Assembly (NCBI GenBank): GCA_018814875.1
Contig: JAHIYH010000025.1
Coordinates: forward strand, 1-57,970
Direction of reading: 5' to 3'
DNA: 57,970 bases
Source of the DNA: Patescibacteria group bacterium
GTDB lineage: Bacteria > Patescibacteriota > Gracilibacteria > Peribacterales > Peribacteraceae
The translations under genes and the position numbers were made by a program. The notes below the pieces were generated by a model. That model worked only from the letters and a program-made list of their open reading frames with translations, did no database searches and was not told the origin of the DNA. Every line of letters starts with the position of its first letter. Positions within the stretch are counted from its first letter, which is position 1. Of this stretch, positions 49,798-57,970 are shown piece by piece.

Positions 49798-52113
49798 GTG
49801 AAACTCTCTTCTTCTCCACTTATGAAACGTCCTGATTCTTCTCCACTCAAAAACGCCACCGCTTCCTGCCAGCGTGTTCTTAAATCAAGCGTCGAAGGTG
49901 AACACATCTGGATTGGTCCAAATGATGCCACTGCATTAAACGAAGAAGATCAGAAAGCCTATGACTTGGCACATACCATTCAACGCCACTTAATCATACA
50001 TGCCCCGCTTAAGCACAAGTCCGGTCATCCAGGAGGGCCGCTCTCCGCATTTACTCCAAGCTACTTTGTTTATAAAAGAAGAAACCCACAAGTTGATCAG
50101 CCTTACCGTATGAGTCCGGGGCATCTATCACTACTCTCTTACGGTCTACAGTGGATGTTTGGGCGTGATAAAGGAGATAAAAGACTGAGTAGCCCACAGG
50201 CAATCATAGATACATTCAGAACGCCTGACGGACTTCCCGGTCATATAGAAGCTGGAATTGGTGATATTCCTTTTGGTACAGGACCTCTTGGAAAAGGTGT
50301 AAGCAATGCGCTGGGTGCTGCTTTTGGTCTTAAATATCAGAAGAAGCCCGGAATCGTAGATGTTCTCCTCGCAGACGGAGATTCACAGGAAGGGCAAGTA
50401 ATGGAAGCCTTCAGGCTCGCTTCTCACCTCAAATTAGACAATCTGGTGGTTCACGGCGATTTCAACGATATTCAGCTTGGCGATCTGCCATCCAAAACTG
50501 TCTGGGCAGATTTTGCAACAATTGCCTATGCCACAGGATGGAACGTGATAGAAGTGGAGAATGGAAACGATCCAGCTCAAGTGACTGCAGCATTGGACAA
50601 ATCTGACTCGCTCATCGGAAACGGTAAGCCTACCTTCATATGCTATTACACCACGATGGGATACGGCATCGACTTTATGGAAGAGGCTTCTAACACCGGA
50701 GGAAAAAATTATCATGGCGCTCCACTATCAGAAGACGAAGCAAAAGATGCACTCTCCAAACTTCAACCACTCGAAGAAGCAGTTAAGGAGTTCGAACCAT
50801 TTAGAGCAGCCGAGAAGGAACGATTCGAGTCCGGCCCACCAACAGTTACAGACATTCCACTTGAGTTTGATGCAAAAAAACTTAGTGGTTACACACGTAC
50901 AATTACAGAAGAAAAAGGTGCAGCGCGAAAAGACTTTGGAGCTACTCATATTAAGAGTCTTATGGCAGTGGACGACCGTATTATCGTGCTACATGCGGAT
51001 CTCGCAGGATCAGGAGGATTCAACAAATGCGCCAAAGATTTCCCAGATCGGGTAATTAACGTAGGAGTGGCTGAGGCGAACATGCTTATGATGGCTGCGG
51101 GCATGCGTCAGACAGGACTTTTGGTTGTTACTTATACTTTTGCAGCATTCACAACAAACGAAGCACGCGCAAACGCAAGACTCATCGATATTAACTGCGG
51201 ACACACACGTTGCGGGATTATAAATGATGGAACACATGCGGGACTGAGTGTTGGCGAAGATGGCGAAACACATCAGGAACAAAACTACTTCAACATTCCT
51301 TATTACTACACACAGGTCTGGATGCCGGCAGACAGTAACCAAGCTGCTGCTATGGCGGAACGATCTATGGAAATAATTGCAGAAGGACATCAAAGTGTTT
51401 TCGTATTTGCACCACGCACAGGACACGAACAACTAAAAAGCCCAATTGGCGAGCTAATTTACGGAAGTGATTACGCCTTTGATGGCAAGGCTGACATTGT
51501 AAGAGGAAGTGGAGATACCTCCGATCAGATCACGATAATCACTACAGGAATTGGCGTCCATGACGCAATTCAGGCGACAGAAGAATTAAAGAATTTAAGT
51601 CAACCAATCCAAGTGCGCGTACTAAACATTGGCTGTATTCGACCGATTGATTCGTCAGCAATCATGCAAGCAGCATTAGAAACAGGTCATCTTATAGTCG
51701 TAGAAGATCACAATTCGGACGGAGGAATCGCAACTCTTGTTGCCGACATCATCGCAGACTTTGCACTTCCTTGTACGCTACGAAGACTCGGACTTAATCA
51801 CTACTTCCCTTCTGCACCTTCTGGTGATCTTAAGATTTTGGCAGGTCTGGATAGCAACAGCATTGTGGATGCATGCGAGGATGAAGTGCGAACCGAAGTG
51901 TGTGGTGGAGAAGACGCATTTATTAGTGCCATTTTTGAACTCACACATAACTTAAGTCACAGTAGATTCAAAGACACTGCACAATCATTTATCGATAAGT
52001 TATTAAATGAGAAGCAATATCTTCAAAATCTTCGATCATTCTGGGGTGAACGAACGTGTTCTGCAGAGGATTTGCCGACGAACGAAGAGCTGCAGCAGAG
52101 ACTAAAAGCATAG
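49798..52113 (+). CDS. tkt: Transketolase
   Basis: About 771 residues from a GTG at 49798; the ATG at 49822 is an alternative and no -10 box decides. Full-length transketolase fusing the TPP, pyrimidine and C-terminal domains. HKSGHPGGPLSAF, the TPP/Mg motif LLADGDSQEGQVMEA with HGDFNDIQLGD, IINVGVAEANMLMMAAGMR, and C-terminal VRVLNIGCIRPID and VVEDHNSDGGIATLV. It is somewhat longer than typical enzymes (630-680) because of an N-terminal leader of about 50 residues and a C-terminal tail of about 80. It moves two-carbon units in the pentose phosphate pathway. Confidence 0.93.
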   Translation: MKLSSSPLMKRPDSSPLKNATASCQRVLKSSVEGEHIWIGPNDATALNEEDQKAYDLAHTIQRHLIIHAPLKHKSGHPGGPLSAFTPSYFVYKRRNPQVDQPYRMSPGHLSLLSYGLQWMFGRDKGDKRLSSPQAIIDTFRTPDGLPGHIEAGIGDIPFGTGPLGKGVSNALGAAFGLKYQKKPGIVDVLLADGDSQEGQVMEAFRLASHLKLDNLVVHGDFNDIQLGDLPSKTVWADFATIAYATGWNVIEVENGNDPAQVTAALDKSDSLIGNGKPTFICYYTTMGYGIDFMEEASNTGGKNYHGAPLSEDEAKDALSKLQPLEEAVKEFEPFRAAEKERFESGPPTVTDIPLEFDAKKLSGYTRTITEEKGAARKDFGATHIKSLMAVDDRIIVLHADLAGSGGFNKCAKDFPDRVINVGVAEANMLMMAAGMRQTGLLVVTYTFAAFTTNEARANARLIDINCGHTRCGIINDGTHAGLSVGEDGETHQEQNYFNIPYYYTQVWMPADSNQAAAMAERSMEIIAEGHQSVFVFAPRTGHEQLKSPIGELIYGSDYAFDGKADIVRGSGDTSDQITIITTGIGVHDAIQATEELKNLSQPIQVRVLNIGCIRPIDSSAIMQAALETGHLIVVEDHNSDGGIATLVADIIADFALPCTLRRLGLNHYFPSAPSGDLKILAGLDSNSIVDACEDEVRTEVCGGEDAFISAIFELTHNLSHSRFKDTAQSFIDKLLNEKQYLQNLRSFWGERTCSAEDLPTNEELQQRLKA

Positions 52114-52254: not shown

Positions 52255-52367
52255 GCCAACCTCCGCTCCTGGCTGGCCTGACATCCGAAGCCGCAGCGAC
52301 TTCGAGAAAAAATAAATAATCGAAGTCCAGGAGACTACGGTTGGCATCCTTCGCTGCGCGAAGGATG
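52255..52367. repeat. Structured dispersed repeat, copy 3, beside tRNA-Ser(UGA)
   Basis: Stems GCCAACC/GGTTGGC and CTCCTGG/CCAGGAG as in copy 2, core CCGAAGCCGCAGCGACTTCG as in copy 1. Tail hairpin CATCCTTCGC/GCGAAGGATG with a minimal loop; its last bases are the CCA of the tRNA. Confidence 0.82.
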
Positions 52368-52455
52368 GCGGAGGGAGTGGGATTCGAACCCACGAGACCC
52401 TTGCGGGTCTAACAGTTTTCAAGACTGTCGCCATCGACCACTCGGCCATCCCTCC
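52366..52455 (-). tRNA. tRNA-Ser (anticodon TGA), CCA encoded
   Basis: On the reverse strand acceptor GGAGGGA pairs with TCCCTCC, the anticodon stem ACAGT/ACTGT holds the loop CTTGAAA (TGA), the long variable arm GACCCGCAAGGGTC is class II, and the T arm is GTGGG TTCGAAT CCCAC. Discriminator G (52369) and CCA (52366-52368) are encoded. Directly downstream is the structured repeat. Confidence 0.97.
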
Positions 52456-52661
52456 ATTTACCATTATACATCTCCCAAGCCCAAGCCCTAGCCCTAGCCC
52501 ACTTTTTAATTGTCTCGCTACACATCGCACACTATGTCGCGCAACACATTCTTTTGAATAGAATTGACGATTTGGCCTCAAGGACTTCAACAAAAGACGT
52601 TTTTCTGCTATAATAAGGAGATTTATTAAGCGCATGTTGCGCAATACACAAAGAAGCACGC
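52456..52661 (+). promoter_or_regulatory. Upstream region of the HTH-tail-fibre gene
   Basis: CCCAAGCCCTAGCCCTAGCCC words at 52472-52499 are followed by CGCTACACATCGCACACTATG-type palindromic words (gcgcaacaca / tgttgcgcaa at 52534-52545 and 52633-52643). A TATAAT box at 52609-52614 followed by AAGGAG gives a leader of about 40 bases, which sets this gene apart from the leaderless ones. Confidence 0.5.
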
Positions 52662-55600
52662 ATGTCAGACAAACATATAAACAAAGGCATCCTGCACTCA
52701 CTTCTAGAAAAAGCGATCGAAGAAGAGGCATCCAAAGAAGTTATAGAAAGACTTCAGTGGTTGATGCGCTACGAAAACCACAGATCCGTGAGTGCAACTT
52801 GCAAGCATTTTAATATTGCACGCTCTACCTTCTATAGATGGTACGACAGATTTGATCCTAACGATCTTTCAACACTAGAAGATAGACCAACAAACTTAAT
52901 TACAAAAAGAAAGTTACTCACCGAGAATAATGACCATCTAATAACTACCGGCAAAGAACGGCATTCATTGCCGACATTCAATATGCAAAGACACCTTGTA
53001 ACAACCTTAGCTGTTCTGTTCATTTTGAACTTAGGTTTTCTGTTATTCATAGTTCCAACACTCGCAAGTGCCGCAAGTAGCTGGAACCCAACACTCCTTG
53101 TAAACACAGAGGCATTCCAGATCATTGATGATGATGACACTAATGCAAATGTAGTACTCAGATTCGGTGACACTATTGGCGAAGAATTAAAGTACGTCCG
53201 TGCAATTAGCCGCTTCGATCTTACACGTGACTTACGCGTATCAGGAAACATGACAGCTACAGGTGCGATCTCTGCATCAGGATCAATCACAGCAGAAGGT
53301 GCATTCTCCGGAGCATCACTTCATGTAAGTGGAGAAACAACTATGAGTGGAGCTTTGTCGGTTGAAGGTACTTCATCATTGCAGGGAGCTGTTACTCTTG
53401 GATCAACCATTTCTATTAACGGCGTCACCTACACCTTCCCTCCTTCAGACGGAGTCTCATCTGGATGGGTGCTTAAGACCGATGCGGCAGGGACTTTGAG
53501 TTGGGCTGCAGAGTCCGGTGGAAGTGGACTTTCACAATCAGAAGCTGATGATAGGTATGTGAATACTAGTGGGGATACGATGACGGGAGCTTTACTCATC
53601 ACTCCTAGTGGTGATGAGGCACATACTCCAAATACTGCACTGGAAGTTCACGGAACCATGTCTGGTCAGCGTCTGAGTGTGACGCCAACGGTTGCTAGTG
53701 AGACGGGAGCGGTATTTGTGGACGTTGACGTGAATGGAACAGGAATGTTGCTCGATTCCGAAGCAACTTCTGCACCTGGCATTGCTATAGATATGAACGG
53801 GAAAACTAATGCAACTCCTCACATCCTCTTTGGATATAACGGCACATTTGATACAAACCTTTACCGTTCAGCAGCCAACATTCTTCGTACCGATGACTCG
53901 TTACATGTATTAGGAGCTTTATCAGGTACTTCACTTCATATAAGTAGCTCGTCAACTATGAGCGGTTCTTTATCTGTGGAAGGTACTTCATCATTGCAGG
54001 GAGCTGTTACTCTTGGATCAACCATTTCTATCAACGGCGTCACCTACACCTTCCCACCTTCAGACGGAGTCTCATCCGGATGGGTTCTTAAAACCGATGC
54101 GGCAGGAACTTTGAGTTGGGCTGCAGAGTCCGGTGGAAGTGGACTTTCACAATCAGAAGCTGATGATAGGTATGTGAATGTAAGTGGAGATACGATGACG
54201 GGGGCGCTCACTATTAATGATGAAACAGGAGCAGATGCAGGTCTGGACATAGTTGGAACAATGAGTGGTACTTCGCTGCAAGTAACAGGAACAGGATCCG
54301 CTCCTATTATTTACACAGATCAGACAACAGGAAGAGTTGGTATTGGGAATGCAACACCAACAACAAAGCTACAAGTGAAAGGTAACTCATTGACAACAGA
54401 GGTAATTTTTAGTGTTATTGACAGCGAAGATGTAAACATCTTTAATATTGCAACGGACTCAAATGGGAATACAGAAGCGAGCCTATACGATACAGGTGGG
54501 ACAAGAAATATTGCACTATTAGGAGGAGATAATCTTGATAGCTGGATCAGAAATGGACAACTTGCTATAGGTAAGACTTCTGTCACAGCTGGTTATGATT
54601 TAGATGTTAATGGAGGTGCTCTATTTGGTGGAAATGTTGGAATCGGAACTACTACTCCGGCCGCTAAACTCGATGTTAAAGGTACTATGTCCGGTCAAGC
54701 ATTGGTAGTGAGAGACACAGTTACTCTAAATGGCGTCACCTACACCTTCCCACCTTCAGACGGAGTTTCATCCGGATGGGTCTTAAAGACCGATGCGGCA
54801 GGGACTTTGAGTTGGGCTGAAGCAAGTGGAGGTATATCTCAGACAGAAGCTGATGATAGGTATGTAAATGTGAGTGGAGATACTATGACTGGTGCTCTTA
54901 CTATTAATAATGAAGGAGCTGAGCCAAGCTTGAATGTGGTAGGGACGATGTCAGGTACCAGTTTGCAGGTTACAGGTACTGGAAGCAGTCCTATTCTTTA
55001 CACGAATCAGACAACAGGAAGAATTGGAATTGGGACAACAACACCATTAGCCAAACTTGATGTCAGAAGTGGAGCAGTTGGAGAAATAGCGAAGTTTTAT
55101 GCCGATGATACATCAGGATGGATAAACATTGTAGAACCAACGGGAAACGCAAATAGATTGTCATTGGGATTTGGAAATGATGGTTATCTCTTTACAGGAG
55201 CATTAACGGATTCTGCAGCTATCAGAGCATCTCACGCTTTGCACTTAGGAACTAATGGAAATAATATTGCTATGACTATTGATACAAGTCAGAATGTTGG
55301 GATTGGGACATCATCACCTTCTACTGCACTAGAAGTAGTTGGTACTATTTCTGGTTCTCAACTTAATGCAAATAATATGCTCACAGACGGTGGAATCGTC
55401 TACAGTGACGGAACAGCACTTCAGGACACTGCAGCCGGTTCATCTGGCCAACTACTAACCTCACAAGGAACAGCCGAGCCTGAATTTAAGGACTTCACAT
55501 CTGCAATGATCTGGTACATAGACGGAGCCGTAGCTACCGGAGCAGACCAAGGAGCAACTGTAGTTATGCCATTCGGATTTACTGTGACGGATGTTGATAT

Positions 55601-55841
55601 ATATGCAGAAACCGCACCAGTAGGCTCCAGCCTCATAATAGATATTAACGAAGCCGGAAGCACTATCTTCTCCACCAATCCGGAAGTGGACGCCAGTGCA
55701 AACCGTGAAGATGGTAATCATGTAATCAGTGATGCAACTCTGGCTGCAGGAGCACTGATGACTCTTGACATTGATCAAGTAGGAAGCGGCACGGCAGGAA
55801 GTGATTTGACTGTTATTCTTAAGGGAACGAGGAAATATTAG
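52662..55841 (+). CDS. HTH-transmembrane-tail-fibre chimeric surface protein
   Basis: 1059 residues. Residues 1-85 are cytoplasmic-type, with a transposase/Psq-like helix-turn-helix (SVSATCKHFNIARSTFYRWYD, about 45-65, then LEDRP). A single transmembrane helix follows (VTTLAVLFILNLGFLLFIV, about 112-130) ending at ASAA. The remaining 920 residues are a phage-tail-fibre-like ectodomain: repeats of DDRYVNVSGDTMTGALTI, GRVGIGNATPTTKLQVKG-type units as in S74/fibre proteins, and a C-terminal beta-sandwich (GSSLIIDINEAGSTIFSTNP ... LTVILKG). Two DNA blocks are nearly identical inside the gene. An upstream AAGGAG and TATAAT support expression. A membrane-bound DNA-binding adhesin is the direct reading; function inferred. 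Confidence 0.85.
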   Translation: MSDKHINKGILHSLLEKAIEEEASKEVIERLQWLMRYENHRSVSATCKHFNIARSTFYRWYDRFDPNDLSTLEDRPTNLITKRKLLTENNDHLITTGKERHSLPTFNMQRHLVTTLAVLFILNLGFLLFIVPTLASAASSWNPTLLVNTEAFQIIDDDDTNANVVLRFGDTIGEELKYVRAISRFDLTRDLRVSGNMTATGAISASGSITAEGAFSGASLHVSGETTMSGALSVEGTSSLQGAVTLGSTISINGVTYTFPPSDGVSSGWVLKTDAAGTLSWAAESGGSGLSQSEADDRYVNTSGDTMTGALLITPSGDEAHTPNTALEVHGTMSGQRLSVTPTVASETGAVFVDVDVNGTGMLLDSEATSAPGIAIDMNGKTNATPHILFGYNGTFDTNLYRSAANILRTDDSLHVLGALSGTSLHISSSSTMSGSLSVEGTSSLQGAVTLGSTISINGVTYTFPPSDGVSSGWVLKTDAAGTLSWAAESGGSGLSQSEADDRYVNVSGDTMTGALTINDETGADAGLDIVGTMSGTSLQVTGTGSAPIIYTDQTTGRVGIGNATPTTKLQVKGNSLTTEVIFSVIDSEDVNIFNIATDSNGNTEASLYDTGGTRNIALLGGDNLDSWIRNGQLAIGKTSVTAGYDLDVNGGALFGGNVGIGTTTPAAKLDVKGTMSGQALVVRDTVTLNGVTYTFPPSDGVSSGWVLKTDAAGTLSWAEASGGISQTEADDRYVNVSGDTMTGALTINNEGAEPSLNVVGTMSGTSLQVTGTGSSPILYTNQTTGRIGIGTTTPLAKLDVRSGAVGEIAKFYADDTSGWINIVEPTGNANRLSLGFGNDGYLFTGALTDSAAIRASHALHLGTNGNNIAMTIDTSQNVGIGTSSPSTALEVVGTISGSQLNANNMLTDGGIVYSDGTALQDTAAGSSGQLLTSQGTAEPEFKDFTSAMIWYIDGAVATGADQGATVVMPFGFTVTDVDIYAETAPVGSSLIIDINEAGSTIFSTNPEVDASANREDGNHVISDATLAAGALMTLDIDQVGSGTAGSDLTVILKGTRKY
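53364..53564 (+). repeat. Intragenic repeat, unit 1
   Basis: 201 bases nearly identical to 53979-54179 (offset 615), encoding EGTSSLQGAVTLGS through the DDRYVN motif. A shorter, related unit is at 54732-54870. Confidence 0.9.
53979..54179 (+). repeat. Intragenic repeat, unit 2
   Basis: Second copy of the 201-base block; only scattered third-position changes (for example tctattaac/tctatcaac). Such recent identity would allow recombination to change the ectodomain length by 205 residues. Confidence 0.9.
54732..54870 (+). repeat. Intragenic repeat, unit 3 (partial)
   Basis: Shares GGCGTCACCTACACCTTCCC and the following segment with units 1 and 2 but lacks the first 60 bases and differs in the linker before DDRYVN. 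Confidence 0.8.
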
Positions 55842-55924: not shown

Positions 55925-56219
55925 TTGTCTGAACCACAGATTACGCAGATTACACGGATTTCACAGATGAAGTCTGTTCTAGAAATCCGTGTAATCAGTG
56001 TAATCCCCTTAATCTGTGGTTCAAACAAGGGAAGAAGTTATTACAGAAAAAAGTCTGAACCTTGATTTACTTCTTTACCTCCACCCATAGCCCCTCCTCC
56101 GGAGGAGGAGGGTAACTTTGTTAAAGAAGATAATACTTTGTGCTTCAATAACGAAGCTCCCCTTCCTCATGTGGAGGAAGGGGTCGGGGGATGGAGGTAA
56201 AATCCGTGATTCAGACAAC
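55925..56219. repeat. TTGTCTGAAC palindromic elements 3 and 4
   Basis: First unit 55925-56027: TTGTCTGAACCACAGATTAC ... CTGTGGTTCAAACAA with internal GATTACACGGATTTC / GAAATCCGTGTAATC. Second unit 56051-56219: AGTCTGAACC ... GATTCAGACAA enclosing TACCTCCACCC / GATGGAGGTA and CCCCTCCTCCGGAGGAGGAGG. No gene lies in 55842-56255. Confidence 0.7.
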
Positions 56220-56255
56220 ACAACGAGCACGTCAACAATGCTACAATACCCGCAC

Positions 56256-57970
56256 ATGAAAGTAGCACAGCGCACACTTGCCATAGTCACACTCTCAACA
56301 GCCTGCCTTGCAGGTACGTTACTTTATGCCCCTCCGACCTCTGCAAAGTTGAAAATTTTTGATGCTCCCATAGAAGCTATGGAACGCATTCTGGATATTG
56401 CATCTCCTTGGAAAAATCATAAACAACTTACCTCAACCGAGACACTAACTTTTGGCAATGCACTAGACAGCAAAATTCATAATTTTTCGAAAGGTAAACT
56501 CAAACTAATCGATGAGGAATCCCCAAGCTGGCGCTATCTAAGAAGTTTGAAGACTGAAAAAAATCCTCAGATCGATGTTAGCTATGCACTCAGCGCAATT
56601 GGACTTTCCGATAAAGATGCAGAGGACTCTTTTAAAGTACATGTAAAGAAATATGGAAATGAGAAACAAGAAATAATAGAGGCAACGTTTAACGCAGATG
56701 AAAAAACAATTTCATTACCGCTAAAGCGTTCATTTAAACCAGGACGTTATACCGCAACAGTAGAAAGTATCAATCCATCCACAGGCCTTACATACAGCTT
56801 TGAACAAGATTTTGTTTGGGGAGTACTGGCAATGAATACAGATAAAGATCGTTACAGGCCAAAAGAAGAAGCCCACATTGCATTTGGAGTACTAGATGAG
56901 ATGGGAAGGATTGTCTGCAATTCTGAACTGACACTAACAGTAACAAGCCCTGCGGGAGAAGTAAAAACGCTCTCTACAGAAAACGACGGGATCACCACCA
57001 CCAATACATGTGGAAAAATGGAGCCTGGCCTTATAACGCCAGATTATGAAGCATTTTTCACATTTAAAAAGAATGGAACCTATCAATTGGAACTGGAAGC
57101 AGAAACATACAATGGGATTTGGACTATTTCGAGTTCCGTTGAAGTTACCAATAGCCCACCCATCATCATCAAACGCGAAGCAGCAACTCGTCTCTGGCCT
57201 TTTGCACCAAGTTCAATGAAAATCGAAGTTGAGTTCTTTGAAGATTATGAAGGTGAGATTACTGATGTTGTTCCAAGTGAATTCAAAATAATTGACATTT
57301 CTGCAAACGGTAAACGTTCAACGTTGAACGTTGAACGAATAGTCTGGTACGGTTCTTGGAAAAAAGGACAAACAGCCCAATTCTCCTATCAATATGACGC
57401 ACCCAATATTTCACCTGAATTCTATTTGATAGGCCCGTTGGAACTTGATAACAAGAAAGAGCTGCGTACCTGGCAAATAGCTAACGACGCAATCACAGCG
57501 GACAACTTAATTCTTCACCTCGACGCAGCAGATATAAACGGTGACAGTGTTCTTAACTCAGGAGACATCTGTTCCAACGGCAGCACAACATGGACGGATG
57601 CCTCTGTCTCCAGCAACGATGCGACACTTAGTACCTTCTCGGCTCCTTGTATAGGCACAAGCGGGTGGGATGGCGATGGAACAACATCTGATCCGTACCG
57701 ACTAGAATTCGATGGAGGAACCGATAATGTTTTTACTGGGTATGTAACAGCACCAAAATCCATTTCCACATGGTTTCGCATCGATGTGATGCCAACAAGT
57801 CCGGATTATATTCTCTACTGGGCAGGCGATGGATCGAACGTGTATTTCCTTTTGTACGTGTATGATGGCCTCCTCTTTGCGCAGACTCAGGCAGGATATG
57901 GTCAGGTATTGGTCACTGGGGCAACGGGCATTTCAACGGGAATCTGGCACCACTTCACCTATGTCAATGA
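56256..57970 (+). CDS. Large secreted protein with LamG-like domain, cut by window end
   Basis: An open frame of 571 codons from the ATG at 56256 to the end of the window. TACAAT ends 8 bases before the ATG. Signal peptide (RTLAIVTLSTACLAGTLLYA). Residues about 85-310 look like two Ig/macroglobulin-type beta domains (KPGRYTATVESINPSTG; NGTYQLELEAETYNGIW). A further beta region follows, and from about 415 a laminin-G/concanavalin-like fold begins (LILHLDAADINGDSV, LEFDGGTDNVF, SISTWFRIDV, GIWHHFTYVND). Probably an adhesin or matrix protein; total length unknown. It shares the strand of the HTH-tail-fibre gene, separated by repeats. Confidence 0.85.
   Translation, partial: MKVAQRTLAIVTLSTACLAGTLLYAPPTSAKLKIFDAPIEAMERILDIASPWKNHKQLTSTETLTFGNALDSKIHNFSKGKLKLIDEESPSWRYLRSLKTEKNPQIDVSYALSAIGLSDKDAEDSFKVHVKKYGNEKQEIIEATFNADEKTISLPLKRSFKPGRYTATVESINPSTGLTYSFEQDFVWGVLAMNTDKDRYRPKEEAHIAFGVLDEMGRIVCNSELTLTVTSPAGEVKTLSTENDGITTTNTCGKMEPGLITPDYEAFFTFKKNGTYQLELEAETYNGIWTISSSVEVTNSPPIIIKREAATRLWPFAPSSMKIEVEFFEDYEGEITDVVPSEFKIIDISANGKRSTLNVERIVWYGSWKKGQTAQFSYQYDAPNISPEFYLIGPLELDNKKELRTWQIANDAITADNLILHLDAADINGDSVLNSGDICSNGSTTWTDASVSSNDATLSTFSAPCIGTSGWDGDGTTSDPYRLEFDGGTDNVFTGYVTAPKSISTWFRIDVMPTSPDYILYWAGDGSNVYFLLYVYDGLLFAQTQAGYGQVLVTGATGISTGIWHHFTYVN

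Follow-up and report, generated by a model that had tools for sequence, protein, structure and literature searches.

A fibre protein gene of Peribacterales with a transposase-type helix-turn-helix domain and candidate operators at its own promoter

We found that one gene in the window (the whole 57,970-nt stretch of Peribacteraceae DNA analysed) joins a transposase-type helix-turn-helix (HTH) domain, through a single membrane helix, to a large fibre ectodomain, and that its promoter carries palindromes which recur at the promoters of related genes. On comparative sequence evidence, and with a probability of about 0.6, the product may be read as a membrane-tethered autoregulator inside a surface fibre, the HTH of which binds palindromes at its own promoter and most likely represses it. 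Cultivated Patescibacteria live attached to other cells, and the source bacterium is tiny and probably host-attached; how attachment is regulated in these organisms is, to our knowledge, largely unknown. An adhesin-like giant fibre, its membrane anchor, a DNA-binding domain and a candidate operator have now been identified together, and autogenous control of a surface structure can be tested directly with a 107-aa protein and short DNA. If true, this would clearly exemplify how the HTH of a transposase can be turned into a regulator whose binding site can be identified.

Architecture of the fibre protein

An earlier note on this DNA had described one uninterrupted frame encoding a transposase-like HTH, a membrane segment and about 920 residues of fibre. 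The translation bears this out, with 1059 codons free of any frame interruption, as do Pfam, hydropathy, AlphaFold and PHROG matches for the order of the parts:

52662..55841, + strand: whole gene, one open frame of 1059 aa (HTH, linker, membrane helix, fibre ectodomain)
52683..52859, + strand: HTH bundle of IS481-transposase type, aa 8-66 (Pfam, NCBIfam IS481, invariant residues, AlphaFold)
52746-52856, + strand: HTH_28 core, aa 29-65 (Pfam)
52860..52988, + strand: predicted cytoplasmic linker, aa 67-109, variable and probably disordered (low conservation, low pLDDT, fast dN)
52989..53072, + strand: membrane helix, aa 110-137, ending in A-x-A (hydropathy)
53028-53030, + strand: nearly invariant Asn123 in the membrane helix (alignment of homologues)
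53064..53075, + strand: possible signal peptidase site ASA/A, aa 135-138, with A-x-A before SSW, present also in HTH-less paralogues
53076..55838, + strand: exported fibre ectodomain with repeats, aa 139-1059 (PHROG tail-fibre matches)
55434..55838, + strand: C-terminal beta domain, aa 925-1059 (phage-fibre-tip fold matches)

Pfam HTH_28 matched the HTH with an E-value of 3.9e-9, exceeding the gathering cut-off, and HTH_23 matched as well. The best NCBIfam model was the N-terminal part of IS481 transposases (NF033577; E 1.7e-7, positions 2-86 of 284); the DDE catalytic core was not found, this match scoring 31 bits against a cut-off of 224 and stopping at position 86 of 284, and no Pfam integrase-core match was obtained in the 1059-aa protein. 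AlphaFold predicts the HTH bundle with confidence (pLDDT about 94 over aa 11-60). A PDB fold search with the model of the HTH-membrane helix module, a mostly disordered query, gave no significant match, nor did a profile search of PDB sequences. Over 12 aligned proteins, 14 HTH columns are invariant (R30, L31, W33, T46, C47, F50, I52, R54, T56, Y58, R59, W60, R63 and D65), and the recognition helix is invariant across genera. Four pairs gave dN/dS values of 0.17, 0.11, 0.11 and 0.08 for the HTH, which shows purifying selection on this domain, and the linker evolves far faster (dN) in most of these pairs.

A single hydrophobic helix spans roughly aa 110-137, with a Kyte-Doolittle mean of 2.59 for the best 19-aa stretch (AlphaFold helix at 106-140). 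In 14 HTH-bearing proteins the best 19-residue hydropathy is 2.36-3.21 and the helix has a central Asn (Asp in one), whereas in 17 HTH-less paralogues that share an SSWxPTLLVNTE-like start it is 1.33-2.23, typical of signal peptides; the HTH therefore comes with a real membrane helix. The order of the parts and the export-type helix imply that the N-terminus with the HTH would lie on the cytoplasmic side. The helix ends in a signal-peptidase-like A-x-A motif (LASA/ASSW), which is kept before the mature start in both HTH-bearing and HTH-less proteins, and cleavage there after export may detach the fibre from the HTH part.

The ectodomain of about 920 aa matches PHROG tail-fibre families and contains the repeats quoted in the earlier note. 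Its C-terminal 135 aa are predicted to be all-beta and resemble phage tail-fibre and collagen-like tips (best E 4.7e-8), and this domain is shared with the fibre genes located downstream of split HTH forms (see below); ectodomain length varies greatly among relatives. Another contig (C59) of the window genome, G000, encodes two fibre paralogues (L101, 143-2437 and 3056-5026) that lack the HTH and the operator and have ordinary signal peptides. The next gene downstream in the window (56118-57968) is cut by the contig end; its product is large, looks exported and has weak matches of MG2 and laminin-G-like type.

Recurrence and genomic context

Of 74 genomes from the order, which all belong to one family (Peribacterales-type Patescibacteria), 35 have the HTH module, and 16 of these contain the form found in the window, here called type A, whose 16 genes form a single clade in the tree (support 96/89). 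The domain order, which the earlier note proposed to seek elsewhere, recurs: the HTH is fused in frame to membrane helix and fibre in 13 genomes, several of these frames ending at contig ends, and is split in the other three (G020, G035 and G007), where a separate short HTH-membrane helix protein overlaps with its end the start of the fibre gene downstream. The separate proteins of G035 and G007 have almost no ectodomain. Since the 13 genomes with the in-frame order belong to several genera, a chance junction or misassembly as the origin of the fusion is ruled out. Nor do homologues consistently lack the HTH, a pattern named in the earlier note as one that would count against its reading; type A homologues keep it, under purifying selection. 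Outside the family, the HTH matches mostly frames of about 340 aa, which is the length of IS481 transposases.

Type A genes usually adjoin two neighbours conserved across genera:

49798..52113, + strand: transketolase, conserved upstream neighbour (Pfam; beside most type A genes)
52366..52455, - strand: tRNA-Ser(TGA), conserved upstream neighbour at type A loci

Because this neighbourhood is conserved, type A is an old resident locus and not a chance junction, and the gene is not encoded in a phage or prophage tail module. These data bear on the reading that the HTH is a frozen accident, i.e. an upstream transposase fragment fused by read-through and devoid of function, with only the fibre mattering. 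Such an origin would suit an HTH that corresponds to the N-terminal portion of IS481-type transposases, the catalytic core being absent. It does not suit the purifying selection and the recognition-helix residues that are invariant across genera, the single clade that survives also as a separate HTH-membrane helix gene and has matching candidate operators (see below), or the fact that Met108 of the window protein, a start after the HTH, has no conserved counterpart. We give this reading hardly any weight, and the sequence comparisons largely refute it.

Two features vary among type A genes. At the expected start in two sister lineages (L060 near 6206 and L044 near 7573) no ATG, GTG or TTG is present, the codon there being ATA or ATC, and a rare start codon may be used. 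In 8 of the 16 proteins (L042, L043, L044, L045, L058, L059, L060 and L061) the linker contains CxxC, often CPFC, just N-terminal of the membrane helix, a possible metal or redox site; the linker of the window protein has none.

Promoter and candidate operators

The following elements were identified upstream of the gene:

52511..52522, + strand: second distal operator-like site, TGTCTCGCTACA (palindrome match)
52535..52546, + strand: candidate distal operator, TGTCGCGCAACA (palindrome match)
52586..52591, + strand: candidate -35 box, TTCAAC, 17 bp before the -10 box (consensus reading only)
52609..52614, + strand: candidate -10 box, TATAAT (sequence; TATAAT or TATACT precedes each type A gene)
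52635..52646, + strand: candidate proximal operator, TGTTGCGCAATA (palindrome match)

The promoter of the window gene is flanked by two near-identical motifs. Of the 16 type A promoters, 15 carry a 12-bp palindrome, TGTaGCGCtACA, which closely follows the -10 box, lies further upstream, or does both. The form TGTTGCGCAACA, idealised from the window only and specified beforehand, was tested on 14 other loci and, allowing up to 2 mismatches, gave 17 sites in 12 of the 14 upstream regions, against 0.19 expected from dinucleotide shuffles (largest count 2 in 300). A refined consensus, TGTNKCGMNACA (best form TGTAGCGCTACA), which is post hoc, has 20 sites in 189 kb of loci, all within 320 bp upstream of type A genes. 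In 14 of the 16 promoters a proximal site follows the -10 box at a distance of 9-29 bp, most often 15-16 bp, and most promoters carry further sites upstream as well. G015 has a distal site only, at the scoring threshold, and no good proximal one, and the type A promoter of G002 has no recognisable palindrome even though its HTH is present. Conservation is lowest at positions 4 and 9, yet the bases there change together and stay complementary (p 0.0017), as would be expected for a symmetric dimer on DNA. By eye rather than by a formal test, no helical phasing was seen between paired operators. A role of the palindrome as an RNA hairpin was rejected by reasoning, as the core lacks a proper loop and the distal copies lie upstream of the promoter.

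Association of the palindrome with the HTH

The palindrome is absent from all 28 promoters examined for type B HTH genes (see below). In eight genomes the consensus has 3-7 matches in total, against 1-5 for a reversed-pattern control, with at least one at the type A promoter of each, and three good matches elsewhere that were checked are all inside coding sequence. The HTH-less loci of genus g18 provide a comparison at the same transketolase-tRNA-Ser position. Three members (G021, G110 and G112) have HTH, long helix and palindrome, whereas G111 and G049 have a fibre with an ordinary signal peptide (1.73 and 1.85) and neither HTH, long membrane helix nor palindrome, a partial half-site being kept in G049. 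The candidate operators thus prove to be conserved and tied to the presence of the HTH, an association for which Fisher tests, which ignore shared ancestry, are a rough guide only and the HTH-less controls at the same locus number two.

These results separate the ideas put forward in the earlier note. That a surface protein is linked to DNA gains from the retention of the HTH in homologues and from the absence of own-promoter palindromes where the HTH is missing; a covalent link to the fibre is not essential, because the HTH-membrane helix part is a separate protein in three genomes. The suggestion that the HTH tethers the chromosome found no support and was rejected, since no set of sites exists around the genome, the palindromes elsewhere in the eight genomes being at about chance frequency.

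That the palindrome is the site of another regulator, the HTH having some other role, we regard as improbable. G002, with an HTH and no site, would fit; against it, the palindromes track the HTH gene, G111 and G049 lacking both at the shared locus, and no wider regulon of palindromes was found.

Proposed mechanism and alternatives

We propose that autoregulation would proceed as follows: i) the HTH stays in the cytoplasm while the single membrane helix anchors the protein and the 920-aa fibre is exported, ii) the HTH, probably as a dimer aided by the Asn-containing helix, binds TGTaGCGCtACA palindromes (TGTnnCGnnACA), iii) the sites bound belong to its own promoter region, some closely following the transcription start and others lying upstream of the promoter, paired palindromes possibly allowing looping, and iv) membrane-resident fibre curbs the production of more fibre, its HTH ends occupying the operators. 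Repression, or feedback, is favoured because the proximal palindrome follows the transcription start so closely; activation by the HTH at its own promoter is an alternative. To judge by the split forms, no fibre need be covalently attached for the HTH-membrane helix unit to act.

The HTH may also tether its own gene. In the version in which this is the main role, as in transertion, the anchored HTH would hold its gene at the membrane, so that transcription, translation and export of the fibre would all take place there, promoter output being hardly affected. Sites confined to the protein's own gene and a DNA-binding domain anchored in the membrane are what this predicts, yet the proximal palindrome lies right after the transcription start, where a bound protein should hinder RNA polymerase, and we hold this version to be distinctly improbable.

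A further alternative, which adds an outside signal to the autoregulator, is a receptor that senses contact: once the fibre binds a host cell, the state of the HTH would change across the membrane and transcription would be switched, as in ToxR/CadC-type proteins. The resemblance of the ectodomain to phage receptor-binding fibres, the single-pass topology with a conserved polar residue in the membrane helix and the precedent of the class (PMC10269533) speak for it; the near absence of an ectodomain from the HTH-membrane helix proteins of G035 and G007, the A-x-A motif, which suggests that the fibre may be cleaved off, and the great differences in ectodomain length speak against it. It is further disfavoured in that no target genes were found beyond the protein's own promoter. 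The receptor signalling straight to DNA that the earlier note had proposed is plausible. On balance we consider contact sensing a serious though rather unlikely possibility.

Comparison with known systems

Membrane-anchored HTH regulators (transmembrane transcription regulators, TTRs; ToxR, CadC and others) are a well-known class (PMC10269533). The fibre protein shares with them an HTH, a single membrane pass and an outer domain in one polypeptide, as well as control of transcription from the membrane, which is only proposed here; it has a recognisable DNA-binding domain (HTH_28 above the curated cut-off) and, by hydropathy and AlphaFold, at least one transmembrane region in the same protein. 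It differs in that the outer domain is a giant fibre and not a compact sensor, the HTH is of the IS481-transposase type and the only sites found are at its own promoter. The main text on TTRs makes no mention of transposases, Patescibacteria or autoregulation (PMC10269533). The proposed feedback, in which a surface adhesin would control its own production, is best read as a new variation on TTRs.

IS481 transposases (NF033577) have an N-terminal DNA-binding part that matches the type A HTH; unlike them, the fibre protein has no DDE catalytic core and its HTH is fused to a membrane helix and fibre. Eukaryotic IS481 relatives end in TGT...ACA (PMC10045372), and these ends resemble the operator half-sites. 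Elsewhere in the phylum, only one IS481 element (L094) proved to be bordered by inverted repeats, several others having short flanks. With phage tail fibres and minor tail proteins the ectodomain has in common the PHROG repeat matches and the fibre-tip fold; unlike these, it belongs to a surface protein that is encoded in the chromosome, at a conserved housekeeping locus, and brings its own export helix.

Two further analogies are PutA, which acts both as a functional protein and as the repressor of its own gene, and MyRF, a membrane protein in which a DNA-binding domain is found together with a phage-tailspike-like domain; neither is an exported bacterial surface fibre with this HTH. The statement in the earlier note that no characterised protein has this architecture holds for the exact combination in the open-licence literature searched, TTRs being well known as a class. 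In that literature no fibre with its own transposase-type regulator and matching operator was found, and nothing on Peribacteria and helix-turn-helix or on autorepressing surface proteins; the single match for Patescibacteria, HTH and membrane is off topic by its title and abstract.

Type B genes and other HTH fusions

A second kind of regulator is proposed for the type B genes, which encode a two-part IS481 HTH region without a catalytic core and either overlap the start of a large surface protein gene by a few bases (ATGA-type) or are fused to it; some of the proteins have their own C-terminal membrane helix with a central Asn. The loci are:

Overlapping forms: L050 3563-4078; L053 16494-17042; L055 2995-3603; L051, L052, L062 and L070
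Fused forms: L048 15375-18272; L056 3632-6637; L073 6649-10014 and 10324-15183; L074, L075 and L077

Many type B genes (e.g. L074, L075, L073 and L048) share another motif, about TTCAGNANNATCNT, which precedes their promoter and differs from the type A palindrome. Chosen after looking, it occurs with up to 2 mismatches at 16 of 28 type B loci, against 2.6 in shuffles. Tentatively, and at slightly less than even odds, we suggest that throughout the lineage a domesticated transposase HTH has become part either of the fibre itself, at its membrane end (type A), or of a partner that overlaps or is fused (type B), every surface locus having a membrane-tethered cis-regulator with a private operator, such that the amount or state of the surface fibre would set its own transcription. 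In other families of Patescibacteria (L079 2368-6378, L080 and L081), a transposase-type HTH is fused ahead of membrane-bound family 2 glycosyltransferases.
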